Assembly: GCA_030693295.1 (NCBI GenBank) | Contig: JAUYAT010000029.1 | Coordinates: forward strand, 1-49,125 | DNA from: a bacterium | GTDB taxonomy: Bacteria; Patescibacteriota; Patescibacteriia; Patescibacteriales; VMTK01 | Direction of reading: 5' to 3' | Length of the DNA stretch: 49,125 bases | Shown here: one piece after another, positions 5,617 to 45,315 of the stretch | Position numbering within the stretch: the first letter of the stretch is position 1 | Layout: each line of letters starts with the position of its first letter | Translations under genes and position numbers: made by a program | The notes under the pieces: generated by a model | What the model was told of the DNA's origin: nothing | Seen by the model: only the letters and a program-made list of their open reading frames with translations | Database searches by the model: none

Positions 5617-7083
5617 TTAAAATCGCAATTCGCGGTTCAGATCCGTCACCGCTTCAAACTCTTGATTATTCAAACAATCCCGCCCGGCCGCTTGCCGCTC
5701 ATCTATTATAGCATTAATCGGCTTATTCTCGCTAATGCCGGCCTGCCCCATTTGCAAATACAATCTATTGATAGGATTGCTTCTCCATGCTTTAATGCCT
5801 TCCAGTCTTTTAACAAAGCTGTCTTCTTCCAACAAATTTATTTTTTCTTTAATTTTTTCAATAATATTCGCCGGATTCTTGGCTAAGCGGCGAAAGCTCG
5901 CCAAATCCATATATTGCAACTCATCAACCGGCCCGAAAACTTTCGGCATAAATTTAACATCTTCCATTTTAACCTTGCCTTCCGGTTTGACTTTATATTT
6001 TATTACATCCGGCCGCTTAATTATAACTTGTTCCGCGGGAGCGGCGTAATCGCTTACGGGCAGCGGCTTGACTCTGATGTTTTGTGTTAAAAGCGGCTCC
6101 GTTTGCAGCGCAACCGGCTGGGCTTGCGGCTCTGCCTCTCGCGAAAGGCGGGGCGGCGAAAGCGCGGGAGGAGGAGGAGCTAACTCATGCCCGGTATCTA
6201 ACTTATTCATCTTAAAAAAATCTTTCTTTTTTAACTCGCTGGCTAAATCATATTCCGCGCCGCGAACTCCGCTAACGCCCAGGGCTTGGGATAATGTTTG
6301 TTTTGCGGCAAAATCTTGGCTTGCCCCGTTAGAAAGCCCATTTCTAAAAAGAGCGGGGTTTAAAGCTCCGCCATTTCTAACGGGGCAGGCGCTTTTCATA
6401 ACAGCGCCAGCGATTAATAAAACATGATCAACCGAATCATTGTCAAAACCCAAACCGCCTGAATCAAGCGGCTTGGTTAAAGTTTGCTTGATTGAAATTT
6501 TATCCCTGATGCCGCGAAGATAGGTCTTTAAAATTTGCTTGAAACGTTCAACCAATATCGCGCTGCCAAAATTAATTTTAGTTTTTTTAATAATTTCATC
6601 CAGTTTACCTTCAATATTATCGGCTAAAGCATGGCCTTGGGCGCAGCCATCGGTTTTTTTTGCCAGCTCCCTGATTTCTTCCTCGTCTTCCGGATGAAAA
6701 TAAAAATCAGCTGATTGGGCCGGAACCGGCTTCGCCGCATTTTCTTTTCTGGCCGCCTGCGCGATAAGATCGTCTATCTGTTCATTTTCGTCCTCATCCG
6801 CTTTTTTTATGCCTAAATAATCAGCCGCGTTAAAAAAAACTTTTTTCCTTAGCTCTCTCTCTATCTGCTTGGCTTTTACGCCGCTTATTCCCAGCTCGTT
6901 CATTAAATATTCAGCCGCGTTATTAGCATCAATCTCTTTAACCATTATTTTCATAACAGTCGCGGCCAAATTCGCTTCGTATCGCTTTTCCAGCTCTTCA
7001 ATGGCAAACATAACCGCCGGCGCCGACACTTTGTCGCGCAGGTCCTTTGGCAGATTATTGAATTTTTGGATATATTCTAACAT
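5617..7083 (-). CDS. Hypothetical T4SS-locus protein
   Basis: 488-aa uninterrupted ORF in the T4SS gene run; contains an in-frame palindromic insertion (6323-6386). Confidence 0.8.
   Translation of the reverse strand: MLEYIQKFNNLPKDLRDKVSAPAVMFAIEELEKRYEANLAATVMKIMVKEIDANNAAEYLMNELGISGVKAKQIERELRKKVFFNAADYLGIKKADEDENEQIDDLIAQAARKENAAKPVPAQSADFYFHPEDEEEIRELAKKTDGCAQGHALADNIEGKLDEIIKKTKINFGSAILVERFKQILKTYLRGIRDKISIKQTLTKPLDSGGLGFDNDSVDHVLLIAGAVMKSACPVRNGGALNPALFRNGLSNGASQDFAAKQTLSQALGVSGVRGAEYDLASELKKKDFFKMNKLDTGHELAPPPPALSPPRLSREAEPQAQPVALQTEPLLTQNIRVKPLPVSDYAAPAEQVIIKRPDVIKYKVKPEGKVKMEDVKFMPKVFGPVDELQYMDLASFRRLAKNPANIIEKIKEKINLLEEDSFVKRLEGIKAWRSNPINRLYLQMGQAGISENKPINAIIDERQAAGRDCLNNQEFEAVTDLNRELRF
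6323..6386. repeat. Palindromic element inside CDS: 13-bp arms GCCCCGTTAGAAA / TTTCTAACGGGGC
   Basis: Perfect arms at 6323-6335 and 6374-6386; translates in frame as CPVRNGGALNPALFRNGLSNGA. Confidence 0.85.
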
Positions 7084-7123
7084 GAAAAATAGTTAAACTT
7101 AGTAATTGTACGTTTGCTCCATT

Positions 7124-7268
7124 TTGTCATTCCCAACTTGATTGGGAATCCAGGAGTAAACCACACGAACTAAAATTTGAGTTTTAATGTGATAACAGAA
7201 AAAATATTGGTTTGTTTATCATGTTTTTGCGTATCTCTCCTGGATTCCCGCTTTCGCGGGAATGACAA
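7124..7268. mobile_element. MITE-like paired hairpin repeat (long variant)
   Basis: GTCATTCCCAACTTGATTGGGAATCCAGGAG ... CTCCTGGATTCCCGCTTTCGCGGGAATGAC. Confidence 0.7.
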
Positions 7269-7602
7269 AAGCTGTTAAATCTTTTTTAATCTGCTTTCGC
7301 AAGCCCTCCGCATTGGCAAATTTTTTCACATCTCTTATTTTTCTGATTATCTTTATTTTAACATCCTTGTGATAAATATCAAAATCAAAATCTTTTATGT
7401 ACAGCTCCAAAGAAACATCTTCATTAAAAGTCTTTTTCGGCCCGAAATGCAATAACCCTTTATATGTTTTACTATTTATTTCAACATCAACTGAATAAAC
7501 TCCGTGTTCAATGTTTAAATCCTTTTTATCCAAATTAGCCGTGGGAAAACCCAGCCGCCTTCCTCTTCCCTCGCCGGTTATGACTTTTGCCGTAAATCGC
7601 AT
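7219..7602 (-). CDS. ribF: Stand-alone riboflavin kinase domain (RibF C-terminal type)
   Basis: MRFTAKVITGEGRGRRLGFPTANL...GVYSVDVEI...; C-terminus VIPAKAGIQERYAKT is encoded by the repeat. Confidence 0.85.
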   Translation of the reverse strand: MRFTAKVITGEGRGRRLGFPTANLDKKDLNIEHGVYSVDVEINSKTYKGLLHFGPKKTFNEDVSLELYIKDFDFDIYHKDVKIKIIRKIRDVKKFANAEGLRKQIKKDLTAFVIPAKAGIQERYAKT

Positions 7603-7615
7603 AAAACTATCTCTC

Positions 7616-7690
7616 TGTCATTCCCGCGAAAGCGGGAATCCAGGAGTTAAGCGAATAAAATCTGGATTCCCGCTTTCGCGGGAATGACAA
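7616..7690. mobile_element. MITE-like paired hairpin repeat (short variant)
   Basis: GTCATTCCCGCGAAAGCGGGAATCCAGGAGTTAAGCGAATAAAATCTGGATTCCCGCTTTCGCGGGAATGAC; inner part matches the 2375-2446 copy in the opposite orientation. Confidence 0.8.
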
Positions 7691-7701
7691 AAGTAATGTT
7701 T

Positions 7702-8172
7702 TTAATCGTTTCGTAATTTAAAGTAATTACAAATTTCCAACAGCGCCATTCCCGCCTCATAGCCCTTATTGCTTTTATCGTTTCGCGCCCGCGCCTGCGC
7801 CTGCTTCATATTATAAGCTGTAATCACGCCGAAAGCAATGGGAACATTATAATCAAGCATCACGCGCATTATTCCGTCCGTTGTTGCTTTGGCTATATAA
7901 TCAAAATGCGCCGTTTCGCCTTTAATCACGGCGCCGATCGCTATTATGCCGTTATATTTTTTTGTTTTTACCAACTTTTGGCAAAGCAAAGGAATTTCAA
8001 ACGAGCCGGGCGCCTGAAAAATTTTAATATCGCCGTCCCTGACTCCCGCCTCTTTTAACGCTTTAACGGCTCCTCGCGCCAGAGCGCCGGTGATGTCGCT
8101 GTTAAATCTCGCCTGCGCAATGGCAATTTTTAATCCTTCGCCGTTTAGTTTGTTGAATGTGTTGGTTTTCAT
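7702..8172 (-). CDS. ribH: 6,7-dimethyl-8-ribityllumazine synthase
   Basis: KIAIAQARFNSDIT...FQAPGSFEIPLLCQKL...GAVIKGETAHFDYIA...PIAFGVIT; likely start MKTNTFNKL. Confidence 0.95.
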   Translation of the reverse strand: MKTNTFNKLNGEGLKIAIAQARFNSDITGALARGAVKALKEAGVRDGDIKIFQAPGSFEIPLLCQKLVKTKKYNGIIAIGAVIKGETAHFDYIAKATTDGIMRVMLDYNVPIAFGVITAYNMKQAQARARNDKSNKGYEAGMALLEICNYFKLRND

Positions 8173-8251
8173 AAACATAAGCGGACGCAACGCGACTGAA
8201 AGGAGCGGTGCGTACGCGGAGATTGCGCGCGCCGCAAACGCGTTCGCGCCG

Positions 8252-8878
8252 CTATCGCGTCACGACCGCTAAGCTCTCCAAATATCGCGCTATCATATCA
8301 ACTTCAATATTTACCTTGTCTCCGGCTTTTAATACCGACAAATTAGTTATTTCCAAAGTATGAGTAATTAAACAGACTTTGAGCCAATCTTTGCCGTTTC
8401 CGGCGATGGTCAAGCTTACTCCGTTAATAGACGCCGAGCCCTTATAAGCCAAATATTTTATTATTTTTTTAGGAACATTTATTATTAAATCCGTGTATTC
8501 GCCTTCTTTGATAACTTTTTTTACAACTCCGACTCCGTCAACATGCCCCATCACGAAATGCCCGTCAAGCCGCTCGCCGATTTTCAATGATTTTTCCAAA
8601 TTAATTAAATCGCCGGCCCGCGCATCCGCGAATTTCGTTAATCTTAAAGTTTCCGGCATCAGCTCAACCGTAAAACTGTCTTTGGTTTTCTTGACAACAG
8701 TCAAGCATACTCCGTCGCAGGAAATACTGGCTCCTGTTTTTATGTCTTTTAAAAAATTTTTTACTTCTATAATAAAATAAACTTTTTTATTCTTGCCCGC
8801 CGTAGCCCCGCCCGACGGGGCGAAGGAGGGTTTAATCTTTTGGATTTTCCCGGTTGTTTCTATTATGCCTGTGAACAT
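8252..8878 (-). CDS. ribE: Riboflavin synthase, alpha subunit type
   Basis: MFTGIIETTGKI...; lumazine-binding repeats SISCDGVCLTVV, HFVMGHVDGVG, SASINGVSLTIA. Confidence 0.95.
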   Translation of the reverse strand: MFTGIIETTGKIQKIKPSFAPSGGATAGKNKKVYFIIEVKNFLKDIKTGASISCDGVCLTVVKKTKDSFTVELMPETLRLTKFADARAGDLINLEKSLKIGERLDGHFVMGHVDGVGVVKKVIKEGEYTDLIINVPKKIIKYLAYKGSASINGVSLTIAGNGKDWLKVCLITHTLEITNLSVLKAGDKVNIEVDMIARYLESLAVVTR

Positions 8879-8894
8879 AGCTTTCTGTTATCTA

Positions 8895-9502
8895 TTATTT
8901 CAAAATAAATTCTGCGTCATTAATTATAATTTTATTGTTATTACTCCAACTTAATTCCACATCTTCAAAAAAATCAACATCAGCTTGAAAAATCCGCTGA
9001 AAATCATTTTGAACATCAAAAACTAAAAGCTCTAATTGATCTTGATCTTCTTTTAAAATTACTTTAAGTTAGGATAAAATCTTGCCTCTTCCGTGTTGCC
9101 GCATAATTGCCTGCCTTGCCAATACCAATTTTTGCCCCATTGCCCGGACTGCGTATTCTTTCGCGTTTGGCCGTCAATAATTAACTTCACGTCATCGCTG
9201 TCTAAAAATCTTTTTTCGCATTTTACTGACGCATCAATAAGATTTAACGGCAAATCTATTAAAGCAAGAGTAATCCAAGGACGGCGGTTGCCATCTTGAG
9301 CTTGCTCTTCCATATATTGCGGCTTGTCTTTGGCCGGAACTTCCCGCAATTTTATTCCATCAATTTCCAATCGCAAATCCTCTCCGCCGAATAATCCTAA
9401 TATTGCGCCTGATCTGCAGCTTGCTGAAATGGAAATAGAGTAAAGGCCTGAATGCTTAATGTTAAATTTATAATCAAACGGCTTAGTTATTTTTTTGTAC
9501 AT
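8895..9502 (-). pseudogene. Hypothetical beta-rich protein split by an apparent -1 frameshift
   Basis: ORF 9059-9502 ends ...ARFYPNLK*; the -1 frame continues open as LKVILKEDQDQLELLVFDVQNDFQRIFQADVDFFEDVELSWSNNNKIIINDAEFILK* to 8895. Confidence 0.6.
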
Positions 9503-9613
9503 AGAATTTTATTTATAACGCTTAATGAGATGAAAGACGCGCTTATCGTAGTATTAATCTACTACAATTGTGGTATAAACATACAACAATGTTAATCGCT
9601 AAACCGCTTCCTC

Positions 9614-10852
9614 CTAAATTTCCCATGGATAGGAATATATAATTTTATCCTTTATTTGATCACTTTTATTGTTTTTTCTTTTCCCCTCTAAAAATACAAG
9701 GTTTCTGTTTTTAATTTTATATTCCTTAACAAAATAATCCATGGCGGCGGATTTAAAAGAGCCTGCGTTTATCTTTGCTTCTATCGGCCAAATGGTTTTA
9801 TTTTTGTTAACAATAAAATCAATTTCCTGCTTGGCCGAAGTTCTCCAGAAATGAATATTATCTGCGCCGTATTTTTTCAATAAATCGCTGAAAACAGCGG
9901 TTTCAAATATATTGCCGGCTATCGCGCGGGGAAAATTTTTAAATGTAAGCAGATTCGCCAAACCATGGTCAATAAAATAGATTTTAGGAGTTTTAAACAG
10001 TTCCGATCTTAAATTGCGATAAAACGGCTTTACTAATTTAATGATATAAGTATTTTCCAAAAGAAAAAGATACTCTTCAACGGTTTGCCTGGCCAAGCCC
10101 GCCGTGCCGGATAGTTCCAAAATATTTATTAAATTACCAGTTTGAGCCGCTAAAATTTCTATCAGTTTGTTAAATTTGGAAATATCCTTAATCCGCGCCA
10201 AATCCCTGATATCTTTCTTAATATAAGCGCTGATAATTTGGTTGAGATAAACTTCCTTTTTAAAAATATCGTTTTCAAGGACAATCTGCGGGTAAGCCCC
10301 GAATATAACATATTCTTTATACAACTTTTTCAACTCCTCGTTAACGGCTTCGGGCAGATTGCCGGCGCTTATATCGTATTTTTTATTTTTAAAAATTAAA
10401 AATTCTTCAAAACTCAACGGCCAAATTTCAAAATTAACCGTTCGGCCGACCAGAGAATTCTTAAATTTTCTCTTTATCTCAAAACTGGATGAGCCGCTTG
10501 CGATAAGTTTGATTTTGCCGCCGTAATTATCATGGAAGAGTTTTAAAAATTTGCTCGGATCGTCTAAATATTGAATTTCATCAAGAAAAACAAATGCTTT
10601 TTTATTTTTGTCGTAACCGGTCGCCGCGAGATAATTAAAAAATTCGTCATGGCCGGCGTTGGCAAGTTCCAGAAAACGCGATATTTCCAAATCAAAATAA
10701 AAAATATTATCATCCTGCCTTTTTTTTAATTCCTCTATCAAATAAAACATGAGCGAAGTTTTGCCGACCTGCCTGGCGCCGTGCAACACCAACACTTCCT
10801 TAGAGTTTATAAATTTGTTTATTTTATCAACTATTTTTCGTTTATAAATCAT
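9614..10852 (-). CDS. AAA+ ATP-binding protein with DUF4143-like C-terminal region
   Basis: Walker A HGARQVGKTSLM, VFLDEIQYL, C-terminal ...FWRTSAKQEIDFIVNKN...IEAK. Confidence 0.9.
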   Translation of the reverse strand: MIYKRKIVDKINKFINSKEVLVLHGARQVGKTSLMFYLIEELKKRQDDNIFYFDLEISRFLELANAGHDEFFNYLAATGYDKNKKAFVFLDEIQYLDDPSKFLKLFHDNYGGKIKLIASGSSSFEIKRKFKNSLVGRTVNFEIWPLSFEEFLIFKNKKYDISAGNLPEAVNEELKKLYKEYVIFGAYPQIVLENDIFKKEVYLNQIISAYIKKDIRDLARIKDISKFNKLIEILAAQTGNLINILELSGTAGLARQTVEEYLFLLENTYIIKLVKPFYRNLRSELFKTPKIYFIDHGLANLLTFKNFPRAIAGNIFETAVFSDLLKKYGADNIHFWRTSAKQEIDFIVNKNKTIWPIEAKINAGSFKSAAMDYFVKEYKIKNRNLVFLEGKRKNNKSDQIKDKIIYSYPWEI

Positions 10853-10921
10853 AAATATAGATATAACTATACTTTACACTATATTCAATTTATTGTAAAG
10901 TGCATTAATCAACAATTAATG

Positions 10922-11923
10922 TTATCTGTATTTCCTCGTCTCCTCCTCAATCGCTTTCCTTTCCAAGCTTCCTTCCGGATATTGATTAGCCATATCGCGC
11001 AATTCCTCAATTTTTTTCTTGTCCTCCGAAGCCTTCTTGTCATCCGTAGCTTTCTTGTCATCCGTAGCTTTAGCGAAGGATGGAGCGAAGGATGAGGCGA
11101 AGGAGGATTCTTTTTCAATTTCTTCTTCAATCGCTTTTTCTTCCAACCCGCCTTTGCCGTACCGCGCCTCTTCTTGTTTTAATTCTTTTATTTTTTCCTC
11201 CGCCGCAGTTGTGGGAGGCCCGCTCACGGTCCGCGCCTTAGTAGCGCTTTCTTGTTTTACAAACTCATGCTCCATATTAGCCGGATTTAAAAGAAAATCA
11301 TATAATTTAAGCAGTTTTAATAAAATATCTTTTCTCTCCCGATCTAATTTTTTGGCTTTTGCATGATTATTAACAAAATTTATTCTATCAATGCTTTTCC
11401 TATTCTGTTTATCGTTAAACGCATTATAAAATTTTAACCAATTGCCAATTGTTATGGTATTTAAATCCTTATACTTTCTTGTAAAAATTTCATTATTTAA
11501 AAGCAATGATTTTAATAATATATCAAACTCTTCTACCGCATCAGAATCTTCTAAGCTTGAATAATTAAAATACAAATCAAGTTCATGGAATATATCAAAT
11601 TTGTCATCTTTAAGTATTTTTAAAATTTTCAATCTGAATATTTCAGCCACATCAGCAATCGGCATATCAATAATACTTATCTTGGTTGGAATAACAGATT
11701 GGCTCTTATCTCGTTCTTTAGTTAAATCCTCCGCTATATTAACAAATAAATCATTGGTATTGGTAATAATTCTTAATTTTTCCTTAAGCAAACCGAATAA
11801 TTCTTGAAGCTCTTTTTCATTCATTTTCAACAACCTTTTTTTCCAAAAAGAAATCTCGCTGTCTTCAAAAGGACTTTCATCTAAAAAAGTATTAATTTGT
11901 TTTATTAATTGCTCCGCGCTCAT
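10922..11923 (-). CDS. Hypothetical coiled-coil-rich protein of the T4SS locus
   Basis: 333-aa ORF directly upstream (in + coordinates) of the VirB6-like gene, same strand; two related C-terminal motifs. Confidence 0.75.
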   Translation of the reverse strand: MSAEQLIKQINTFLDESPFEDSEISFWKKRLLKMNEKELQELFGLLKEKLRIITNTNDLFVNIAEDLTKERDKSQSVIPTKISIIDMPIADVAEIFRLKILKILKDDKFDIFHELDLYFNYSSLEDSDAVEEFDILLKSLLLNNEIFTRKYKDLNTITIGNWLKFYNAFNDKQNRKSIDRINFVNNHAKAKKLDRERKDILLKLLKLYDFLLNPANMEHEFVKQESATKARTVSGPPTTAAEEKIKELKQEEARYGKGGLEEKAIEEEIEKESSFASSFAPSFAKATDDKKATDDKKASEDKKKIEELRDMANQYPEGSLERKAIEEETRKYR

Positions 11924-11927
11924 AAAG

Positions 11928-14774
11928 TTAGCTTATTTTATTGGATAAATCATCTAATTTGCTTGAATTATCTTCGTAGGCTTTTGCATTCTTTTCTAAA
12001 TTAATATTGTTCATATATACTGATTTTTCTAAATCGCCTAAACTGCCTCCGACTTTATTAATAGAATCCAAGCCGTCGCCCATGCTTTCTATCGCGTTAG
12101 CCAAATTTTCCATTGATTCTTGCAATTTACTGTCTACGGCTCCAGCCACAGTCTGCTTAACGTCATCTTTTGTCGGCCGTGTTTCAGTAACATTAGATGT
12201 AAAGGCATGTATATTTGAACCTTTGGATTTTAACAAATTATCTAAACTTTCCTCTGCTTTGCTGTCTAAGGTTATTTTCTTTTCCGGATCTTTTACCGCC
12301 CATCTTGTTTTATTGGTTAAGCCCTCGGTAAAATACTCGTGCATTATCGCGTCATCGCTCATTTTATCATTTTCATAAACTTTTTTAACTTTTTGTCTTG
12401 CTTTTTCCCGATCTGTTTCGCTCATTGAATTACTCCACACCTGCTTTAATTCATTATCAGTAACAGCGCTGCTCATTCGTCCATGCAATAATTCATGCGC
12501 GTGAGTGGCTCTGCGCTCTATTCCGCTCATCTCTTTCTCTTTATTATGCAATACAAGATAATTAACGCTATTAATTTGCTCTTCCACTGATTTAGCTAAA
12601 TTTTCATCTACTTTACTTAATGATTGCCTGATTCTTCCGGCTATTTCTGATTTATCTTTTCCTTCAACATATAAAGCGTCTAAATTATCAAGTCCAATAT
12701 CGCTGAAATTTAAAGCTAACCTGCCTTTATCTATTTTATTTAACCCGGTAATCCCACTGGCAACCTCAGGAGATTTTGACTTGCCGGTAACATTACGAGA
12801 TCTGCCCACTAAACCAAAATCTTCCGACATTCCCGCGGCTTTTTGCGCAGGCGTTAATACGCCTCTGTTGCCAAAAATTCCATCAAAGCCCTCTGGTTGG
12901 CTTGTTGCCCAAGTTTTTAACATACTTCTTTGTTTTGCAGTACCCCTATCCCATAAAGCAGCCATTTTTTTACTGGCCGATCTGTCTGGTCCCCACATTG
13001 CGTTTAAAACTTCAGGGGTAAATTGGGTGTGATGAAGATCTATCGCCTGAGGCGCTTTAATTCTACTGGCCGTATAATCTCTCATGCCCGGGCCTGCGGA
13101 AGCGATTAAATTGCCTGCGGCATCCATAATATCATTTTCTCTAAAATATTCGCTCGCATGTTCCCCCGCATGCGGTCCTGCGGTATAACGCCCGCCTCTT
13201 ACGGTGCCGTAATAATCTCTCATTAAATTATTATCAATATTCCCAACATGCTTATTCCTAAACTCTTGGAATAACTTGCCTATATCAGCATCCCTAAATG
13301 AATCTTCTCCTTCCGCGGTAACAGAATGCCCTCCCATCCTCGCTAAATCTATCATGGCCTGGGTTTTTCTTCGGCTTGCTTCCGCTCCATGGCCCCAATC
13401 TTCACCTCTCTGCATCTTTTCCATCAATGCTCTCTTATAACCCTGCCTTGACGCTTCCTGACCTCTAGTTGCGAAAGATAACGCCTGACCGGCGCGCGTT
13501 CTTCCTTCTCCCGTGTAATTACGCATCACTCTGTCTAAATCTTGCTCTGGCAAATATTTCATATACCTTGTATCTTTTTCTTCGGCAAACTCCCGCTTCA
13601 TTCGTAATTCGCCTTGTTTTTTTATTGCTAACCCGCTAATTATTGGAATTTCCTTGCCTATGTCTAACAACCTATCAGCCGCTCCATACCCAGCTCTTTT
13701 GGCATATTCTTTCGGTAAATAAGCGGCTGTTCTGCCGGTCCATTTCGCCGCGCCAATCCCAGTCGCTTTTATTTTCGCAATCGCATTTCCGGCCATACTC
13801 CCGGCCGCGCCGCCCAACTGCTGGGTTACCATAAGACCGCCGATTAACATGCCGATTGAAATAATAAATTTAATCATATTATCTTCACTGCCAGCCGTGG
13901 TTATTGCGGCGGTTGGGTTTGTAGCGGTGGTGGGTTTAATATCACCCACCAGCCCGGTTGAGCTGGTGGCGGAAACAAATGATAGCCAGATGAAAAAAGC
14001 CAAAATCGGACCAACCACAACCTGCTTAGAAAATTCGCTCCACCATTGAGAAGCATATTTTTGCCCCGCCGGAAAAGCCGACATTAAAAATGCCAAAGGC
14101 GATAAAACAATATAAACCCATAACATAACCATTCTCATAACTAGCACGGCAATCATAACGATAGTTACTATTAAAGCAATAATTACATAAACTAATGCCA
14201 GCATATAGGAACCAAAAATTGTAAGACCAGTGACATTGTTCGCCGCCGGATCAATTTCGAGTATTTTATTAATCCCTAGCATGGTTGTTAAACTGGATTC
14301 GCCCATAGCGGCAAAACCGTTAACAAAAGTTAACATTATCACTTGAGCAAAATCTATGATCAGGCCGCAAATGGTTTTGGAAAAATTAATTAAAACAGCC
14401 ATAATCAACAATTTTGGCAATAGTTTTTTAGCGTTATAATTTTCCCTCCTTAAAATCGTGGCAAAGGCGATTATCAGTAAAATCAAGATAAAAAACATAT
14501 TGCATAAATCCCTGACAATCACCCATCCGTTGGCAACGGCGGCTGATTTTATAAAACCATTATAACCGCAGACCCAAATTAATATGCTAAATAGGGTGGT
14601 CAAAATCAGACCTAAGGCATAAATAATGGCAGAAATTACATGACCTAAAATTTGGGCTATACTGACTCCGATGTCCACCGCATACGCATAATGGCCGAAT
14701 AAAAAACTGCCGGATACTATCAATAATATCAGCCCAAAAGAAAAATATTTTTTAGCGAAAAAATTAATTTTCAT
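11928..14774 (-). CDS. VirB6/TrbL-like polytopic membrane protein with long soluble C-terminus
   Basis: N-terminal signal/TM plus several TM helices (LVYVIIALIVTIVMIAVLVMRMVMLWVYIVLSPLAFLMSAFP), then ~600 aa hydrophilic tail with HELLH motif. Confidence 0.8.
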   Translation of the reverse strand: MKINFFAKKYFSFGLILLIVSGSFLFGHYAYAVDIGVSIAQILGHVISAIIYALGLILTTLFSILIWVCGYNGFIKSAAVANGWVIVRDLCNMFFILILLIIAFATILRRENYNAKKLLPKLLIMAVLINFSKTICGLIIDFAQVIMLTFVNGFAAMGESSLTTMLGINKILEIDPAANNVTGLTIFGSYMLALVYVIIALIVTIVMIAVLVMRMVMLWVYIVLSPLAFLMSAFPAGQKYASQWWSEFSKQVVVGPILAFFIWLSFVSATSSTGLVGDIKPTTATNPTAAITTAGSEDNMIKFIISIGMLIGGLMVTQQLGGAAGSMAGNAIAKIKATGIGAAKWTGRTAAYLPKEYAKRAGYGAADRLLDIGKEIPIISGLAIKKQGELRMKREFAEEKDTRYMKYLPEQDLDRVMRNYTGEGRTRAGQALSFATRGQEASRQGYKRALMEKMQRGEDWGHGAEASRRKTQAMIDLARMGGHSVTAEGEDSFRDADIGKLFQEFRNKHVGNIDNNLMRDYYGTVRGGRYTAGPHAGEHASEYFRENDIMDAAGNLIASAGPGMRDYTASRIKAPQAIDLHHTQFTPEVLNAMWGPDRSASKKMAALWDRGTAKQRSMLKTWATSQPEGFDGIFGNRGVLTPAQKAAGMSEDFGLVGRSRNVTGKSKSPEVASGITGLNKIDKGRLALNFSDIGLDNLDALYVEGKDKSEIAGRIRQSLSKVDENLAKSVEEQINSVNYLVLHNKEKEMSGIERRATHAHELLHGRMSSAVTDNELKQVWSNSMSETDREKARQKVKKVYENDKMSDDAIMHEYFTEGLTNKTRWAVKDPEKKITLDSKAEESLDNLLKSKGSNIHAFTSNVTETRPTKDDVKQTVAGAVDSKLQESMENLANAIESMGDGLDSINKVGGSLGDLEKSVYMNNINLEKNAKAYEDNSSKLDDLSNKIS

Positions 14775-14795
14775 TTATCAATTATTTTTATAAAT

Positions 14796-15383: not shown

Positions 15384-15407
15384 ATGAATTAAGAATTATG
15401 AATTATG

Positions 15408-15437: not shown

Positions 15438-15456
15438 AATTATGGTTTTGGAACTT

Positions 15457-16059
15457 CTACTTCGCTTTAAATCCGATTTCTTTTTTATCTTTTCTTTCTT
15501 TCTCATCCCCCTTTATTAGATAATCCAATATCTTAAAAATCTCATAAATTTTTTTATCATACTTTTTCTCTATTTCAGCAATCTTCATAGCTAAGCCCTC
15601 ATACGAAGAAACGAATTTCCTGATGTTTACAAAAATTCTCATAATAGCGATATTTACTTCTATCGCCTTTTCACTTTTTAACACGCTGGACAGCATAGCT
15701 ATGCCTTGCTCGGTAAAAACATAGGGCAATTTTCTTCTGCCTCCCCAACTTGAAGTCACAATTTGTGATTTCAAGTTTTCTGTTTTTCCCTTATTTTCAG
15801 TATTTTCTGTGTTCAAGGTCACAAATTGTGACCTTGAAGATGGTATCACATTTTGTGATACCATATTATTAACCTCAAATTCAGACAGTTGAAACATAAA
15901 ATCCTTAGGAAATCTTTCAATATTTCTTTTCACTGCTTGATTTAATTCTCTAGTTTCAACATCATAAAGCATAGCCAAATCGCGATCCAGCATAACCTTC
16001 TGCCCGCGAATCAGCAAAATCTTGCTTTCTATTTTATCTATTGGAATAACATTACTCAT
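15457..16059 (-). CDS. ORF6N domain-containing protein
   Basis: IESKILLIRGQKVMLDRDLAMLYDVETRELNQAVKRNIERFPKDFMFQLSEFE...SSWGGRRKLPYVFTEQGIAMLSSVL. Confidence 0.92.
   Translation of the reverse strand: MSNVIPIDKIESKILLIRGQKVMLDRDLAMLYDVETRELNQAVKRNIERFPKDFMFQLSEFEVNNMVSQNVIPSSRSQFVTLNTENTENKGKTENLKSQIVTSSWGGRRKLPYVFTEQGIAMLSSVLKSEKAIEVNIAIMRIFVNIRKFVSSYEGLAMKIAEIEKKYDKKIYEIFKILDYLIKGDEKERKDKKEIGFKAK
15747..15863. repeat. Three consecutive palindromes with a TCACA..TGTGA core inside the ORF6N CDS
   Basis: 15747-15777 (15-bp arms, 1 mismatch), 15812-15838 (13-bp perfect arms), 15841-15863 (10-bp perfect arms). Confidence 0.9.
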
Positions 16060-36163: not shown

Positions 36164-36212
36164 AAAAATAAAATATTGTAAATTGAAAATTATCTAATAT
36201 TATTATACCATT

Positions 36213-37103
36213 TTACTTAAAATAATCAAATAATTTCGTCCATTCCTCAACTGATAATTCCTGCGCTCTGATTTTCGGATTGAAGCCGGCTTGTTTTATT
36301 TTTTCCTCCGCTTCGTCTTGACTGATGTGATAGCCGGCCGCTAAATTATTTTTCAGCATTTTTCTTTTGGCGCTAAAACCAATTTTTACTAATCTGAAAA
36401 AATCTTTAATCCATTCGGGCGATGCGCGCATCGCCCCTACGCCATTAATTGTCATCTTTATAATCGCCGAATCCACTTCCGGCTTGGGCCAAAAATTATT
36501 CGCCGGCACGATTTCAATAATCTCCGGCTCGGCGTAAAATTGGACCGACACCGCGAGCAAACTCATTTTTGGCGGCTTGGCAACAATCCTTTCCGCCACT
36601 TCTTTTTGCAGCATCAGCGCCATCATTTTCGGTTTATGCTCCATTGATAAAAATTTCCTTAAAAAAATTGACGTGATATTATACGGCAAATTTGCCACAA
36701 CTTTGAAATTGGCAATTGGCAATTGGTAATTGGCAACCTGGAATTTGGAGTTTGGGATTTGATTGGGAATTGGGGTTTGGGATTTGGGATTTAATTGCAA
36801 TATGTCCATATTCACCACTTCCACATTCTTTATCCCCTGCGCCATTAATCTCGCCTCTAAAATTTCCGCCAGCCGCTTGTCTATTTCCACGGCAATGACT
36901 TTCTTAACCCTTTTCGCCAATTCAACGGTTAAAAATCCCAAGCCCGGGCCGATTTCCAAAACAACATCTTCTTTGTTAAGATCCGCCGCGCCGATGATTT
37001 TATTATAAAACTCTTCATTAATTAAAAAATTCTGCCCCTTTGAACGATTGGGCTTGATATGGTAAAGATCGCACAGCTCTTTTGTTTCTTTCAGTATATC
37101 CAT
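36213..37103 (-). CDS. rsmA: 16S rRNA (adenine1518-N6/adenine1519-N6)-dimethyltransferase
   Basis: [39 protein letters not shown]; carries two in-frame repeat insertions. Confidence 0.95.
36417..36436. repeat. 20-nt perfect palindrome GGGCGATGCGCGCATCGCCC inside rsmA
   Basis: Translates in frame as part of [11 protein letters not shown]. Confidence 0.85.
36707..36797. repeat. AT-rich ~7-nt period array inside rsmA
   Basis: aattggcaattggcaattggtaattggcaacctggaatttgg...; encodes [25 protein letters not shown]. Confidence 0.85.
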
Positions 37104-37104
37104 T

Positions 37105-37614
37105 TTATTTCCCATTAAATCCTGCTATAATAACTTTAAACGAATCAACTAACTTCTGAATCCTTGAAGCCGAAGCGCCCGGAATGCCGATTACCCAGGG
37201 ACTGATGTTTGTAGCTCCTCCCGCGATAAACTGCATACCCTCAACAGGATAAGCGCCGCCGCCCTTGTAAACAAAGCCGATTGGCGCGGCGATAAAAGTT
37301 GTTCCTAATTGGCCAATAATATCAATTTCAATATAACCGGCGCAAGCCGTCCCTAAAGCGCCTGTAACCAATGGGCAGGAAATCGCGCAAGTCGTGGGAG
37401 AACTGGCTGGCGTGTCTAAAACGCACGGCCCCCCAACCAACACATGGCTCCCTACCATGGTAATTTTTCCCCCGTCCTGCCATGGCATAGAACCGGCGGC
37501 TTCAACCGCGCTTTGATAATTAAAATAATCAACAATTCCCGGAATAACTAATAGTATTAAGCTGATAATCGCGATTCCGGCTATTAGCCAAATTATTCTT
37601 TTTTTAGCAATCAT
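37105..37614 (-). CDS. Hypothetical single-TM exported protein
   Basis: N-terminal TM IIWLIAGIAIISLILLVIPGIVDYF; 169-aa ORF. Confidence 0.65.
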   Translation of the reverse strand: MIAKKRIIWLIAGIAIISLILLVIPGIVDYFNYQSAVEAAGSMPWQDGGKITMVGSHVLVGGPCVLDTPASSPTTCAISCPLVTGALGTACAGYIEIDIIGQLGTTFIAAPIGFVYKGGGAYPVEGMQFIAGGATNISPWVIGIPGASASRIQKLVDSFKVIIAGFNGK

Positions 37615-37708
37615 AGTTTTAAAAATTTAATAATAAACTCTATTTCCATTATAGCAAATTTTTATTTAATTGACGAGTTTCATAATTCACGATTATTAAA
37701 AAAATTCT

Positions 37709-38503: not shown

Positions 38504-39652
38504 TAAATTTATCAACAGCGATGCCAGCGCCGCCAAGCCGAATGTCCAATTCAAGCCGAAATTCAAGGCAACGGCTATGGCAAAAATCAGCATCAATACT
38601 CTGCCGAATTGAATGGCGATTTCTTTCAGGACCGTGTACTCATCAACATAATGGCCGCGGTCGGCCATGATCTCATAATTCAGGGTGTCAAACGGCGTAT
38701 CTTTAAATATTTTAGTGAACTCATGATAAGCGCCGATGATAAAAATATGAAAAGCGGTTAAAACGAAAATCTTGGCAACCCAGCCCAGCGCGTACAGCGC
38801 CGAGCCCCAATGGAGCATTTTCCTTTTATTGATTATGTCGGTATATTTGCCGGCAAACAGCTGTAAAATAACCGCGATAAAAATTATCAATGACGAGATC
38901 GCGCCGACTTCCAAATAATCGCCTTGTAAAATCTGCCAGATAAAAATAGGCCAAATAATAATACCGATAACATTTTCCGCCCCATTGGCCATATTGGCTA
39001 AAACTAATTTTTTGTTCTCACGGGAAAAATATTTTTTCCAAGTCTCCCAAATTCCCCAGCTATATCTTTCTTCGGTCCGCGGCAAAGCTAAATACGGGAT
39101 GCCGGCCGCTAAATAAATTATAATCGCCATAACGAAAACCGCGTTAAAGCCATATTTTACAATAATATATCCGGCAACCACTGGCATAATTATGCTTAAA
39201 AAAGAATGAGTCGCGTACATTAAGCTCACTTCTTTGCCTCTGTTGCTCTGGTCGGTAAATTTAGCAAAGTCCGTGTGATAAGGCAGCCAAAACATCAACC
39301 GGTCTAAAGTTATCACAATCATAGACAGCGTTAAGAATAAATACGGGTCTTTATCAATAAAGTAGAGGCAGACATAATACAGCCCGTCAAGAAACACGCT
39401 GATTCTCAATGAGCGGCGCAAACCGATTTTATTTAAAAGCTGGGCGCCGGCGGGCAGGAGCAAAGCGTACAGCAGCCAGCCGATTAAAAAATACAAAAAA
39501 ACATATTCAACGCGATGGCCAAGCTTGATAAATAAAAAAATGGGGAGAAAAAGCCCAAGCATGCCGCTGGCGATGAATTGGATCATTCTGCCGGAAAATA
39601 AAGCCACAAATCCCGGAGATAATTTATTGTTGAAATATTTCAGTTTAAACAT
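38498..39652 (-). CDS. MFS-type transporter
   Basis: 384-aa polytopic protein with MFS-like loop patterns. Confidence 0.75.
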   Translation of the reverse strand: MFKLKYFNNKLSPGFVALFSGRMIQFIASGMLGLFLPIFLFIKLGHRVEYVFLYFLIGWLLYALLLPAGAQLLNKIGLRRSLRISVFLDGLYYVCLYFIDKDPYLFLTLSMIVITLDRLMFWLPYHTDFAKFTDQSNRGKEVSLMYATHSFLSIIMPVVAGYIIVKYGFNAVFVMAIIIYLAAGIPYLALPRTEERYSWGIWETWKKYFSRENKKLVLANMANGAENVIGIIIWPIFIWQILQGDYLEVGAISSLIIFIAVILQLFAGKYTDIINKRKMLHWGSALYALGWVAKIFVLTAFHIFIIGAYHEFTKIFKDTPFDTLNYEIMADRGHYVDEYTVLKEIAIQFGRVLMLIFAIAVALNFGLNWTFGLAALASLLINLL

Positions 39653-39654
39653 AT

Positions 39655-40884
39655 TTAACCCCCGATCATCACGGCCAGCGGCTTTAATTTCACAATCGGC
39701 CGCGCCAAATCAATTTGATTTTTTATAACGGTCTCAATATTTTTATACGCCTGCGGCGCTTCGTCAAACTTTCCGCGCCAGCCCTCAAAAATAATCCCTT
39801 TAACCGCCTCGTCGGCTTGCTCGCGGGTTAAAACCCTGCTTGCTTCCCGGCGGCCCAAAACTCTGCCGGCGCCGTGGGCGCAGCTCATAAAACTCTCCGG
39901 ATTACCCAATCCTTCAACAATATAGCTCGGGGTTCCCATACTGCCCGGCACTATGCCCAATTGCCCCTTGAACGCCCGTGTGGCGCCTTTGCGGTGGATG
40001 ATTACGGTTTTGCCGAAATGCTCTTCGCGCGCCGCGTAGTTGTGATGAATGGCCACTAAGACACTTGGTGTCCAAGAAGACACCGAGTGTCCGGAGCGTC
40101 CGGCATGCTCTTTGTTAAAATCAATAAATTCGCAGCCGCTTACGGCCTGAAAAATATCCATAAAGCGCTCCATCATAAGATGGCGGTTGGCTTTGGCGAA
40201 CTCCAGGCAGTAATTCATCGCCTGCCAATATTCCCCGCCCTCGGGGGAATCAAGCTTTAAAAAGGACAAATCCCTGTCAGGCAGGCCGATATTATTCAAT
40301 TCACAATACCGCCTGGCTTTCCTATGATAAACATTGGCCGCTTTTAGGCCGAAGTTGCGGGAGCCGCTATGCAACATCAGCCAGATATTGCCTTGCTCCG
40401 CTATGTTCCATTTTTTATCGCCGGCTTCCCGCAATATTTCAACAAAATGATTGCCGCCGCCCAAGGTGCCGATCTGCTTGCGGGCCGAATTAAGCTCCTG
40501 CCGGATTATGGGAATATCGGGCGCCCGGTCAAAACCTTCCCATTCCTGCGCTTCCTTATGATGGGTAAAGCCGGTTGGGATAATTCTTCTTAATTTATTT
40601 AAAATCTGTTTTAAGTTATATTCATCTATTTCTTGAATAGTGGTTTTTACGGCAGCCATGCCGCAGCCGATGTCAACTCCAACGGCATTGGGCACAATCG
40701 TATCAACCGTGGCCAAAACCCCGCCGATCGGCATGCCATAGCCGATGTGCGCGTCAGGCATAATCGCGATGTGGTGGAATGCTCCGGGCAAATTGGCTAT
40801 GTTCCTGACCTGTTGCATAGTATCCGGCTCAATCTCGTCCAGCCACATCTTTATCGGAATTTTTTCTTCTTTGATAATCTTCAT
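39655..40884 (-). CDS. rtcB: RNA ligase RtcB
   Basis: MPDAHIGYGMPIGGVLAT, GVDIGCGMAAV, GTLGGGNHFVEI, HRKGATRA, GSMGTPSYIVEG, SCAHGAGR. Confidence 0.96.
   Translation of the reverse strand: MKIIKEEKIPIKMWLDEIEPDTMQQVRNIANLPGAFHHIAIMPDAHIGYGMPIGGVLATVDTIVPNAVGVDIGCGMAAVKTTIQEIDEYNLKQILNKLRRIIPTGFTHHKEAQEWEGFDRAPDIPIIRQELNSARKQIGTLGGGNHFVEILREAGDKKWNIAEQGNIWLMLHSGSRNFGLKAANVYHRKARRYCELNNIGLPDRDLSFLKLDSPEGGEYWQAMNYCLEFAKANRHLMMERFMDIFQAVSGCEFIDFNKEHAGRSGHSVSSWTPSVLVAIHHNYAAREEHFGKTVIIHRKGATRAFKGQLGIVPGSMGTPSYIVEGLGNPESFMSCAHGAGRVLGRREASRVLTREQADEAVKGIIFEGWRGKFDEAPQAYKNIETVIKNQIDLARPIVKLKPLAVMIGG
40060..40103. repeat. Hairpin doublet inside rtcB
   Basis: GACACTTGGTGTC-CAAGAA-GACACCGAGTGTC (one mismatch) then CCGGA-GCG-TCCGG; encodes GRSGHSVSSWTPSVL. 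Confidence 0.85.
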
Positions 40885-40885
40885 T

Positions 40886-43798
40886 TTATTTTACCGCGAT
40901 ATTAACCAACTTTCCCTTAACAAAAATCACCTTAACAATCTTTTTGCCCGCGATCCACTTTTTAATTTTCTCGCTCTCCAACGCGGCTTTCTTGGCTTCT
41001 TCTTCGGAAATATCAGCAGGAACTTCAATGGTGTCGCGCAGCTTGCCGTTAACCTGAACGACTAAGTTTATTATTTTATCTTTAACCAATTCGGGATCGT
41101 ATTCCGGCCACTTTTCTTTAAAAACGCTTTCTTTATGGCCTAATTCGCGCCAAAGCTCCTCGGACATAAAAGGGGCGAAGGGCGCAAGCAATTTCACTAA
41201 AACTTCAACAACATCTTTGTTAACCGTATTATTCTTTTTGGTTGCCGCTTGCAAATAATTAACATACTCCATAATTGCCGCGATGGCCGTGTTAAATTTT
41301 AAATTCTCTAAATCCTCCGTCACTTTTTTAATTGTCTTATGGGTATTTTTTAAGCACTTTGGTTTGTTTGTTGTCTTGCGCGCCACTTCATCGGCTAAAT
41401 TCCAGACACGATTAATAAACCTGCGCATTCCATTTATGCCGCTGTCGCGCCAATCGCCGCCCTGCCTCATATCGCCTAAAAACATCAAATACATGCGCAC
41501 CGCGTCAGCGCCGAATTTTTCAATATATTCATCAGGATTAACCACATTGCCTTTTGACTTGCTCATTTTCGCCCCGTCTCTGATTAAAAGCCCGTGGGCG
41601 CGAAAACATTTAAACGGCTCCTCTGCCGGCGCATAGCCCAGCTCGCGCATAACCATATTTACAAAACGGGAATACAGTAAATGCAAAACGCTGTGTTCTT
41701 TGCCCCCGATATACATATTAACCGGCATCCACTTTTTTAAACGTTCTTTATCCAGCGCCTTATCGGTAAATTCAGTGCAAAGATAGCGCATATAATACCA
41801 GCATGAATCAACAAACGGATCAGACACGTCAGTTTCCCGCATAGCCGGACCGCCGCATTTGGGGCAGGTTGTATTGACAAAGTCTTTAACTTTATTCAGG
41901 GGTCCTTTGCCGGATCCGTCGGGCAAAAAGTCATCCATTTCAGGCAAAAGAATCGGCAGATCTTTTTCAGGAACAGGATGCCAGCCATGCCCTGAGCCTG
42001 CCGAATGGGCGCACTTTTCACAATAAACCATTGGTATTGGCGGACCCCAATATCTCTGCCTGCTTACGCACCAATCGCGCAATTTATAAACAACTTCTCG
42101 TCTTCCAAGTCCTTTTTCTTCCAGCCACTTAATCATTTTTTCTTTAGCTTCTTTGGTTTCTAAACCATTCAAAAAACCGGAATTAATATTTATGCCTTCT
42201 TCGCAATAAGCAAAATCGCCATAAACCAATCTCTTCCAAGCTATTTTTTGATTCCAAACATTAATAAATGATTCTACATTTTCTTCTTTTATCCAAATTG
42301 CTTCATGCTGTTCTTTTTCTTTTCGCAAAACATTTGCTTGCTCTTTATTTTTTAATTCAAAAAATAAGTATTTAAAATTTGCCATTACATTTGAATCTTT
42401 ATGCGGCCTATAAAATTCAGCATATATTGAGTCGCCTAATTGTTTAATAAATTTCAAATTTTTATAGCCGGTTTCTTCTTTAACTTCTCGTTTTGCGGCC
42501 TCAACTAAATCCTGGCCGTCTATTCCGCCGGTTGGAAATGATTTCCATTCCGTAGTATTCCAATTTAAACATAAAAAAGTATTATTTTGGGGATTTTTTA
42601 CAATTACTGTCACCACATCTCTTCTCTCTGTTTCTTTACCCTCTTTTGGATTATCTCTTAAAAAGGGGGCGGCAACCTCTTTAATTTGTAGTCCATATTT
42701 CTTAGCAAACTCAAAATCCCTCTCATCGTGCGCCGGAACCGCCATAATCGCGCCGGTGCCATAGCCGGCCAAAACATAATCAGCCACAAAAATCGGTATC
42801 TCTTCATTATTAACAGGATTAACCGCGGACAAGCCCTCAATCTTCACCCCAGTCTTCTCCTTGGCCAAATCCGTTCTCTCTAAATCAGATTTTTTCTTCG
42901 CTTGCTCAGCATAATTCATTACCTCTGCGTAATTCTTAATTCGTAATTCGTAATTCGTAATCAAAGGATGCTCCGGACAAACAACCATATAAGTACAACC
43001 GAATAAAGTATCCGGCCTCGTCGTAAATACCTCCAAAAAGAATTTTGAATTTTGAATTTTGAATTTTGAATTTATTTGTGATTTGTAATTTGAAATTTGG
43101 AATTTCACAATAGCGCCAACACTTTTACCGATCCAATTCCTCTGAATCGTCTTAACTTCTTCGCTCCAATCCATAACATCCAAATTTTTCAGCAACTTTT
43201 CCGCGTAATCGGTAATCCGCCAAAACCATTGCTCCATTTGCTTTTTTTCAGTTTCGCTGTCGCAGCGCTCGCATTTGCTGGCAATAACCTGCTCGTCTGA
43301 CAGCACGGTTTTGCATGAAGGGCACCAATTAACAGATGACTTTTTACGATATGCCAAGCCTTTTTCATGCATCTTTAAAAACAGCCACTGCGTCCATTTA
43401 TAATAATCAGGCTTATAGGTTTCTACGGTTCTGCTCCAGTCGTAACCGTTGCCGATCATGTGAAGCTGGTCATAAAAATGCTTTTCCGTGCGGGCCGACA
43501 CGTCTTTAATATGCTCGCCGATTTTAATCGCGTAATTTTCCGAATGGATGCCAAAACCATCCAGCCCAATCGGCTCAAAAACATCAAACCCGCGAAGCCG
43601 CATAAAACGGCCGTAAGCGTCGCTGTGTACAAAAGCGTACATATTGCCGACATGCAAGCCCTCGGCGGATGGATAAGGAAACATCATCAAGTTGTAAAAC
43701 GGCTTTTTCGCCTTATCTAAATCTGCTTGATAAAGTTTATCCCTCGCCCATATTTCATGCCATTTTTTCTCAATTTTTTTATGGTCGTAATTTTGCAT
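40886..43798 (-). CDS. leuS: Leucyl-tRNA synthetase with a NUDIX-like insertion in the editing region
   Basis: FPYPSAEGLHVGNM, TRPDTLFGCTYMV, GTGAIMAVPAHDERD, SKSKGNVVNPD; Nudix-like GGIDGQDLVEAAKREVKEETGY; likely start MQNYDHKK. Confidence 0.95.
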   Translation of the reverse strand: MQNYDHKKIEKKWHEIWARDKLYQADLDKAKKPFYNLMMFPYPSAEGLHVGNMYAFVHSDAYGRFMRLRGFDVFEPIGLDGFGIHSENYAIKIGEHIKDVSARTEKHFYDQLHMIGNGYDWSRTVETYKPDYYKWTQWLFLKMHEKGLAYRKKSSVNWCPSCKTVLSDEQVIASKCERCDSETEKKQMEQWFWRITDYAEKLLKNLDVMDWSEEVKTIQRNWIGKSVGAIVKFQISNYKSQINSKFKIQNSKFFLEVFTTRPDTLFGCTYMVVCPEHPLITNYELRIKNYAEVMNYAEQAKKKSDLERTDLAKEKTGVKIEGLSAVNPVNNEEIPIFVADYVLAGYGTGAIMAVPAHDERDFEFAKKYGLQIKEVAAPFLRDNPKEGKETERRDVVTVIVKNPQNNTFLCLNWNTTEWKSFPTGGIDGQDLVEAAKREVKEETGYKNLKFIKQLGDSIYAEFYRPHKDSNVMANFKYLFFELKNKEQANVLRKEKEQHEAIWIKEENVESFINVWNQKIAWKRLVYGDFAYCEEGININSGFLNGLETKEAKEKMIKWLEEKGLGRREVVYKLRDWCVSRQRYWGPPIPMVYCEKCAHSAGSGHGWHPVPEKDLPILLPEMDDFLPDGSGKGPLNKVKDFVNTTCPKCGGPAMRETDVSDPFVDSCWYYMRYLCTEFTDKALDKERLKKWMPVNMYIGGKEHSVLHLLYSRFVNMVMRELGYAPAEEPFKCFRAHGLLIRDGAKMSKSKGNVVNPDEYIEKFGADAVRMYLMFLGDMRQGGDWRDSGINGMRRFINRVWNLADEVARKTTNKPKCLKNTHKTIKKVTEDLENLKFNTAIAAIMEYVNYLQAATKKNNTVNKDVVEVLVKLLAPFAPFMSEELWRELGHKESVFKEKWPEYDPELVKDKIINLVVQVNGKLRDTIEVPADISEEEAKKAALESEKIKKWIAGKKIVKVIFVKGKLVNIAVK
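42931..43106. repeat. Two AT-rich ~7-nt period arrays inside leuS
   Basis: aattcttaattcgtaattcgtaattcgtaatc (42931-42962) and aattttgaattttgaattttgaattttgaa... (43041-43106). Confidence 0.85.
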
Positions 43799-43864
43799 AT
43801 AATTATTATTAAATTTCCAATTACTATTACATTTTAGCTTAAAATCGCGCAAAAAGCAAATAAA

Positions 43865-43892
43865 AAGGGGGAACTGAAAAGTTCTCCCCTTG
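43865..43892 (-). terminator. Terminator for small-ORF operon
   Basis: Minus strand: AAGGGGAGAACTTTTCAGTTCCCCCTTTTTA. Confidence 0.7.
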
Positions 43893-43905
43893 TTTGCGCC
43901 GTTAT

Positions 43906-44124
43906 TTAGTCTTCGCCTCTATTCATGGCGTTTCTGTGGTTCAATAAATACTGCTCTTCCAGACTTAACGGATCTTCAAGAATTTCATCCTCTAAATCTG
44001 AAAATATCTTTATTTTTCTTTCCTCTGGTGGAGCAATATCCTGAAGAAGTTTTCCCCCCCTCTCTCCGGTTAGGGGTTCAAACCTCACCTGCTCTTTTCT
44101 TTTTAAATTCGGCTTTCTGGCCAT
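43906..44124 (-). CDS. Small hypothetical protein
   Basis: MARKPNLKRKEQVRFEPL...; strong SD (GAGGTAG) upstream. Confidence 0.6.
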   Translation of the reverse strand: MARKPNLKRKEQVRFEPLTGERGGKLLQDIAPPEERKIKIFSDLEDEILEDPLSLEEQYLLNHRNAMNRGED

Positions 44125-44353
44125 CTTCTACCTCCTCTCCCGTCATTAGGTCAATTCTGGGTAAAGCATCTTTGCTAATCGGCTTAAATTTCAGCGACTC
44201 TTTCGATCTAAACATTCCGGGCCAGTCCCTAACATTTTTATCCCAGCACGCGTTTGGACCAAACCCTGAAAAATTTCCCAATGACAAAGTAGTTAAATTC
44301 GGACGATACTCAATCCCCATTTTTTCAGCTATCCCGCCTTTTTTTGTGCGCAT
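44078..44353 (-). CDS. Small hypothetical protein
   Basis: MRTKKGGIAEKMGIEYRPNLTTLSLGNFSGFGPNACWD...; strong SD (GGAGGAGG) upstream. Confidence 0.6.
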   Translation of the reverse strand: MRTKKGGIAEKMGIEYRPNLTTLSLGNFSGFGPNACWDKNVRDWPGMFRSKESLKFKPISKDALPRIDLMTGEEVEDGQKAEFKKKRAGEV

Positions 44354-44382
44354 GTTTGCCTCCTCCTTTTTCTTAATCTATC

Positions 44383-44565
44383 TCATCTATGTCGGGCAAT
44401 GATAACAAAATTCCCCACTATGATAGAATCAATGACAAACGCCCCGTTAACGCATATCCACTTTGTATTACATGCCTTGCAAAAAACCTTCGCGCCATCT
44501 TTTCTTTCCGTTTGTAGTAATGCTGCTTCACATGCCTTACAGCTATTCTTCCAGTATTTATCCAT
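44383..44565 (-). CDS. Small CxxC zinc-ribbon-like protein
   Basis: CKACEAALL...VFCKACNTKWIC; AGGAGAGG upstream. Confidence 0.65.
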   Translation of the reverse strand: MDKYWKNSCKACEAALLQTERKDGAKVFCKACNTKWICVNGAFVIDSIIVGNFVIIARHR

Positions 44566-44608
44566 ATCCTCTCCTTTTTTCGTTTTTTAAATTTTTTATA
44601 TTGAGAGT

Positions 44609-44837
44609 GTTGAATAATTCTATCCTGTCATTCCCGCCCGCTTCGCCGGAGCTTCAGCGAGGCGAGCGAAAGCGGGAATCCAGGAGTGAGCCGTAAAAAC
44701 ACGAATAATTGATAAAAAGTTTAATATTTTTAATACTTTTATCTATTTTCTTGTTCATGCCGCTATCTCCTGGATTCCCAGTCCCTCCAAAGGCGGGCAG
44801 GCAAGCTGGGAATGACAAAGAGAAAGAACTATTCAAT
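44609..44837. mobile_element. MITE-like element with TIR GTTGAATAATT, carrying secondary palindrome insertions
   Basis: GTTGAATAATT at 44609-44619, AACTATTCAA at 44827-44836; opposed GTCATTCCC / GGGAATGAC hairpins, each interrupted by extra GC-rich sequence. Confidence 0.75.
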
Positions 44838-45315
44838 GCTCTTTTATTTTAAAAATGAGCCAATTTTTTTTGCTTGCTTCGCCCGCGAAGCGAGACGAGT
44901 CTTTAAATCGGACTAAAGCGTACTCGCCTTTCAACTTCTCGCCCCGCAGATTAAATTTTATGCTTCCTTTTTCCAAATCGCCTTCTATATAATCCCACTC
45001 CCCTTTGTCCCAAATCTTAACTTCGCCGGCGCCGTATTCTCCTTCCGGAATTATGCCTGAAAAATCAATATAGCCAACCGGATGATCTTCCACTTGCACG
45101 GCCAATCTCTTTACGCCCGGCTCTTCCGGCACGCCTTTGGGCACGGCCCAAGATTTCAAAACCCCTTCCGTTTCCAATCGTAAATCATAATGCAAACTGC
45201 GCGCGTGATGCTCATGTACGACAAAACGGCGCGATTCGCTCTCGCTTATCTCGCCTTTCGGCTCCGTGGTTTTATTGAATTTTCTTTTCGCTTGATATTC
45301 TTTTAACGCGCTCAT
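44833..45315 (-). CDS. LigD-type 3'-phosphoesterase domain protein
   Basis: RFVVHEHHARSLHYDLRLETEGVLKSWAVPKG...; EGEYGAGEVKIWDKG; NWLIFKIKEH. Confidence 0.93.
   Translation of the reverse strand: MSALKEYQAKRKFNKTTEPKGEISESESRRFVVHEHHARSLHYDLRLETEGVLKSWAVPKGVPEEPGVKRLAVQVEDHPVGYIDFSGIIPEGEYGAGEVKIWDKGEWDYIEGDLEKGSIKFNLRGEKLKGEYALVRFKDSSRFAGEASKKNWLIFKIKEH

Follow-up and report, generated by a model that had tools for sequence, protein, structure and literature searches.

Results

Palindromes inside and between genes of the window

The window, i.e. the whole stretch of 49,125 nucleotides analyzed here, corresponds to contig 20 in a genome of 1.06 Mb that comprises 62 contigs and is about 90% complete. 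Genome size and gene content point to Patescibacteria. The window carries palindromes both within genes and between them:

2374..2447, no strand: intergenic F1 dimer, GTCATTCCCGCGAAAGCGGGAATCC, of the abundant REP family F1 (contrast class)
6319..6390, minus strand: F8 insert in a T4SS-cluster gene (5617-7083), encoding CPVRN...RNGLSNGA
7603..7702, no strand: second F1 dimer, intergenic
8795..8827, minus strand: ribE insert (ribE, 8252-8878), an F6 variant of 33 nt encoding the 11 residues SFAPSGGATAG
11050..11084, minus strand: additional F6 copy in ORF 10922-11923, peptide PSFAKATDD
15747..15863, minus strand: three operator-like palindromes with the core TCACAANNTGTGA in an ORF6N gene (15457-16059; Pfam PF10543)
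36417..36440, minus strand: F11 insert at rsmA site 2 (rsmA, 36213-37115), GTAG plus a 20-nt perfect palindrome, 24 nt, VGAMRASP
36702..36797, minus strand: rsmA site 1 insert, AT-rich, non-palindromic and repeat-like; relatives have unrelated inserts there
40056..40103, minus strand: F10 double palindrome in rtcB (39655-40884), two adjacent GACAC(CGA/TTG)GTGTC-type palindromes, GHSVSSWTPSVL
44872..44898, minus strand: F9 insert in a LigD 3'-phosphoesterase gene (44833-45315), 27 nt encoding the 9 residues SSRFAGEAS

A preliminary description had listed six of these as GC-rich palindromes inserted in frame into unrelated proteins. All six are present and in frame, and their positions hold exactly or very nearly; the ORF6N palindrome is AT-rich, so "GC-rich" does not apply to it. 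The F6 copy at 11050-11084 and the non-palindromic rsmA insert at 36702-36797 had been overlooked.

Hairpins in the coding DNA of this genome exceed chance. Within 245 kb, we counted 12 perfect stems of at least 10 nt in coding DNA, compared to 2.0 after synonymous-codon shuffling and 3.4 after shuffling of codon order, as well as 28 GC-rich stems of at least 8 nt (9.8 and 9.0, respectively). The genome was sampled in stretches amounting to 459 kb (43%), with the remainder covered by search, and relatives comprised one other genome of the same family and many of the same order. Loop placement was read from gaps relative to solved structures for ribE and rsmA.

Inserts are missing from homologs and recur in unrelated genes

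In ribE, SFAPSGGATAG constitutes 11 extra residues that are missing in 13 of 13 aligned homologous loci and align to a gap in the solved riboflavin synthase. Its arms are common to the F6 copies, its frame is the same as that of PSFAKATAGK, and four other genes read the family as PSFAKATAG. Analogously, SSRFAGEAS is missing from the LigD phosphoesterase of all ten relatives compared and lies outside the aligned core. Two more F9 copies exist genome-wide, one in an Hsp20-like gene and one in a lipoprotein-like gene, both in the identical frame. RtcB exceeds its two closest relatives by 6 residues, and F10 recurs twice in the genome (86% and 82%), once in a glycosyltransferase-like and once in an O-antigen-ligase-like gene, both times in frame; one of these two genes reads it in a different frame from rtcB.

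The F8 insert is delimited by 17-nt terminal inverted repeats, GCTTGCCCCGTTAGAAA, at a spacing of 38 nt. Two more in-gene pairs share its frame (DPVRN..VSNGV and HPVRY..LSNGV), and additional copies are intergenic. The surrounding loop is variable in all relatives, among which no clean empty site was found; the T4SS palindrome is thus supported as an in-frame insert indirectly, via its repeat copies.

Together with rsmA (see below), ribE, LigD and rtcB bear out by homolog alignment the behavior previously likened to Rickettsia palindromic elements (RPEs), with T4SS in indirect agreement and ORF6N departing from it. Overall, the reading as in-frame inserts is largely confirmed: it holds for five of the six palindromes, while ORF6N is reclassified. 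Moreover, the proposal that several unrelated palindrome families act alike holds: they are dispersed, in frame in unrelated genes, missing from homologs and placed in variable loops.

Two palindrome classes differ in location, and the in-gene class keeps its frame

Families were collected blind to genes as repeated 16-mers in the 459 kb sample. Location statistics rest on the blind families F3, F5, F6, F6b and F7, since F9-F11 were found through window genes; F4 (a 15-mer with two mismatches), largely a product of chance, was omitted from the counts. F1 (ATTCCCGCGAAAGCGGGAAT) and F2 (CCCTCCTC) are located between genes in 50 cases, at gene edges in 6 and within ORFs in another 6, mostly at ORF ends. 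F1 itself has 45 matches in the genome, mostly intergenic. A lone copy at 7242-7266 closes the riboflavin kinase ORF (7219-7602) at its 3' end and encodes the final residues, the Pfam domain PF01687 stopping at residue 110 of 127. We rejected stop codons alone as the cause of the intergenic placement of F1 and F2, as each has open frames.

In contrast, the five blind families together are found 24 times in genes and 4 times between them (Fisher p about 1e-11 for 24:4 versus 6:50). This in-gene share merely equals the 88% coding share of the sample, and the second class is therefore characterized by a lack of gene avoidance, which sets it apart from REPs.

The reading frame is conserved among the in-gene copies. 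Across eight families, 28 of the 32 in-gene copies are read in the commonest frame of their own family, compared to 18.6 expected for three frames (p<5e-6); under a two-frame null the bias remains at p=0.002, and the blind families alone give 18/21 (p=1e-4). The peptides of the favored frames are mostly small-residue, hydrophilic and stop-free, while the other frames are frequently open as well.

Repeated insertion into the same loops of rsmA and uvrA

F11 has one further identical copy genome-wide, in uvrA (C33:2265), where it is read in the same frame as VGAMRASP. Its position in rsmA, site 2, is a loop flanked by VDSAIIK and FFRLVK that differs in length across 75 rsmA genes; site 1 is a second variable loop ahead of VVANLPY. 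Both lie at or beside gaps relative to the solved RsmA. We compared the inverted repeat of each insert with every same-length control window of the same gene. Among the 75 rsmA genes, inserts of at least 20 residues beat all control windows in 12/32 cases at site 1 and 9/21 at site 2, whereas inserts shorter than 16 residues did so in 1/26 and 1/28, respectively. Likewise, 8 of 16 long uvrA inserts beat all controls, as opposed to none of 19 short ones.

The same rsmA and uvrA loops hold unrelated inserts within one genus, and in a congener pair whose rsmA genes are 85% identical, the site 1 insert is shared while site 2 differs. We searched nine rsmA inserts, each against the genome it came from: most had more dispersed matches, and several copies are in frame in other genes. 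Nine genomes besides this one show inserts of this class. Hosts in the relatives include genes that, by recognition, we take to be IleRS-, Elp3-, MnmA-, QueA-, Lgt- and RAYT-like. In one relative (G004), two RAYT-like transposase genes carry the palindrome of its rsmA insert in frame. Another (G028) has six tandem copies of LAPRSLGEGG, a 10-residue palindrome-like peptide, in its uvrA loop. In the closest relative (G001), the uvrA matches end on two contigs beside a palindromic insert, where the hairpin may have interrupted the assembly.

As in the window, rsmA site 1 of many relatives is occupied by AT-rich in-frame repeats of the IPNSKFQ, NTKYEIRN and KLEVRS types, which form a non-palindromic companion class. 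Because several site 1 inserts are AT-rich repeats without a palindrome, the tolerance of the loop is not palindrome-specific.

The ORF6N palindrome is ancestral and conserved as DNA

The AT-rich ORF6N palindrome codes for the SQxV motif of the family itself and occupies the same position in ORF6N genes from phages and plasmids across several phyla. In the window gene, two of the three palindromes are extra copies, and these alone make up a 29-residue expansion. The preliminary description had reasoned that segments ancestral in homologs, and conserved there as protein without the DNA palindrome, would speak against insertion. The ORF6N segment is ancestral, and here the DNA palindrome is kept, while the ribE and LigD inserts are missing from homologs.

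The dyad is conserved as DNA beyond the constraint of the protein, as judged from sequence comparison. In 28 genes picked by amino acids only, paired positions covary to 13-15 from the center. At distance 8, 79% are paired versus 26% after shuffling, and all four pair types occur; as the 28 genes are related, shuffle p-values overstate their independence, and more weight attaches to the variety of pair types. Further, the palindrome exceeds synonymous shuffles at <=0.01 in 22 of 40 genes, with arms of up to 16 nt, and a few homologs read the same DNA in another frame (ITxCD instead of SQxV). The site also occurs upstream of ORF6N start codons in homologs, with 6 sites in 12.5 kb versus 0.03 expected, the copies lying 64-146 bp before several starts. 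The window gene has its three internal copies and no recognizable upstream copy.

A new insertion like the others was therefore rejected for ORF6N, because the segment is ancestral and covarying and its DNA is conserved in homologs from phages and plasmids. An RNA hairpin is disfavored because the center consists of one base. The palindrome looks like an intragenic operator, and the copies in and upstream of the gene are most likely binding sites for the ORF6N protein or its repressor, the ORF6N protein itself possibly being the binder. A narrow literature search for ORF6N with KilA-N or a palindrome retrieved no relevant paper and no description of the site.

A RAYT gene with palindromes of its own

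The genome contains one RAYT gene (NF047646, 88 bits at a cut-off of 80):

10319-10870 of stretch L107 (contig C8): RAYT gene flanked by GGCACAGTCTCCTCGCAAGGGACTGTGCC palindromes

Its flanks, GGCACAGTC..GACTGTGCC, represent a REP family distinct from both F1 and the in-gene families. Of 60 relatives, 35 have RAYT-like matches. Their presence is associated with rsmA inserts (14/29 versus 5/21, p=0.14) and uvrA inserts (13/29 versus 5/17, p=0.36) in the expected direction, though not significantly. No target duplication was established at the in-gene inserts, and a literature search for Patescibacteria and RAYT yielded nothing.

Discussion

Origin of the in-gene palindromes

These elements are shown to be inserted relative to homologs, to exist as dispersed copies, to be biased in frame and to recur at loop sites. 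We consider it likely (probability about 0.75) that they are short mobile or once-mobile palindromes of 24-72 nt, REP/RPE-like and belonging to at least eight families, which have inserted into genes here and in related genomes, with the ORF6N palindromes standing apart as probable binding sites. Selection would retain those copies that fall into tolerant loops, leave the frame intact and, in the frame used, yield a bland, stop-free peptide. The favored, though unproven, route of movement would be as single-stranded hairpins mobilized in trans by a RAYT/IS200-type (Y1) transposase. The host would presumably gain nothing useful, the inserts reflecting tolerance rather than function.

That fast-evolving genes simply vary in loop length and contain palindromes by coincidence might be suspected from the rsmA and uvrA sites, which are length-variable in all relatives and in part filled with AT-rich tandem repeats devoid of palindromes. 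Yet near-identical palindromes recur in unrelated genes of one genome, which largely refutes this explanation; palindromicity is, moreover, restricted to long inserts, and the loops of ribE and LigD hardly vary in length among the other relatives. We regard such coincidence as very improbable. Unlikely as well is that the palindromes are functional DNA or RNA signals inside genes, such as operators or mRNA hairpins. ORF6N, with its covariation and its copies upstream of start codons, provides a precedent, but the inserts of the other families are missing or different in sister genomes, and hence the host gene has no conserved function that relies on them.

A more serious possibility, albeit one we favor less than transposition, is spread without a transposase, either by joining of taken-up or released fragments at microhomologies or by hairpin gene conversion through template switching. 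It would accommodate the non-significant association of RAYT with inserts, the distinct REPs of the RAYT gene, and the occurrence of many families with 2-8 copies each instead of one active family. On the other hand, RAYT-like genes are present in 35 of the 60 relatives, and insert families have many matches in other genomes, as expected for a transposed element. Within the reading as mobile palindromes, an element class adapted to intragenic life, in which each family has evolved one frame encoding a tolerated linker-like peptide, may be entertained as a rather doubtful extension.

Implications

Previously, palindromes living inside proteins were known from Rickettsia and a few other bacteria. 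Here, several in-gene families coexist in one compact genome, and the pattern spans an order of related genomes. If the families are indeed adapted to intragenic life, selfish DNA would spread through the coding sequence of compact genomes and create diversity of protein loops. Since insertions took place repeatedly and independently in rsmA and uvrA, these two housekeeping genes allow gain, loss and choice of frame to be measured. For annotation, peptides such as AKATAGK, PLTPLLIRRGE and SPRFAGEAG in such proteins should be taken as repeat DNA and not as family motifs. The ORF6N palindrome, in turn, is a candidate DNA target for a widespread phage-type domain.

Comparison with known systems

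Intragenic operators occur in autoregulated genes, for example as lac repressor sites. Like them, the ORF6N dyad is a symmetric site located both within a gene and ahead of it, and the gene encodes a putative DNA-binding domain; unlike them, it is very long, overlaps a protein motif and is maintained through paired substitutions in phages and plasmids from several phyla.

REPIN/RAYT systems are matched by the F1 inverted REP pairs, 18-20 nt apart, and by the RAYT gene with flanking palindromes. However, these flanking palindromes correspond neither to F1 nor to any in-gene family.

Palindromes lying in frame within genes have been reported for Rickettsia and, in the form of REPs, for other bacteria (PMC3733652). 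GTAG/CGTC-tagged REPs with intragenic copies, some of them in uvrA and other repair genes, were described by Di Nocera et al. (2013), who assigned RPE-4 and RPE-6 to the CGTC REPs and linked RAYT genes to GTAG REPs (PMC3733652). Similarly, the element shared by rsmA and uvrA begins with GTAG. This tag is terminal in both rsmA/uvrA copies; of the three F9 copies, a single one has CGTC, GTAG lies within the arm in F6, and F10 and F8 have neither. In contrast to the tagged REPs, several families lack a terminal tag, some reside mainly in genes while others of the same genome are intergenic, and a reading-frame bias was measured. REPs by definition seldom overlap coding regions (PMC12306157), which agrees with F1 and F2 (6:50) but not with the blind in-gene families (24:4).

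With RPEs and the Wolbachia WPEs, the elements have in common that a repeated palindrome is dispersed in frame among genes of unrelated function and missing from homologs, the site being empty in all relatives for ribE and LigD and in the nearest relatives for rtcB. The likeness noted here is one of behavior. The elements described here are shorter (24-72 nt), at least eight families occur together in another lineage, and insertion at one loop is repeated across an order. Multiple families, frame bias, contrasting classes and recurrent loops were not found reported for this order in the literature searched. We conclude that the in-gene palindromes represent RPE- and REP-like behavior in a new lineage.
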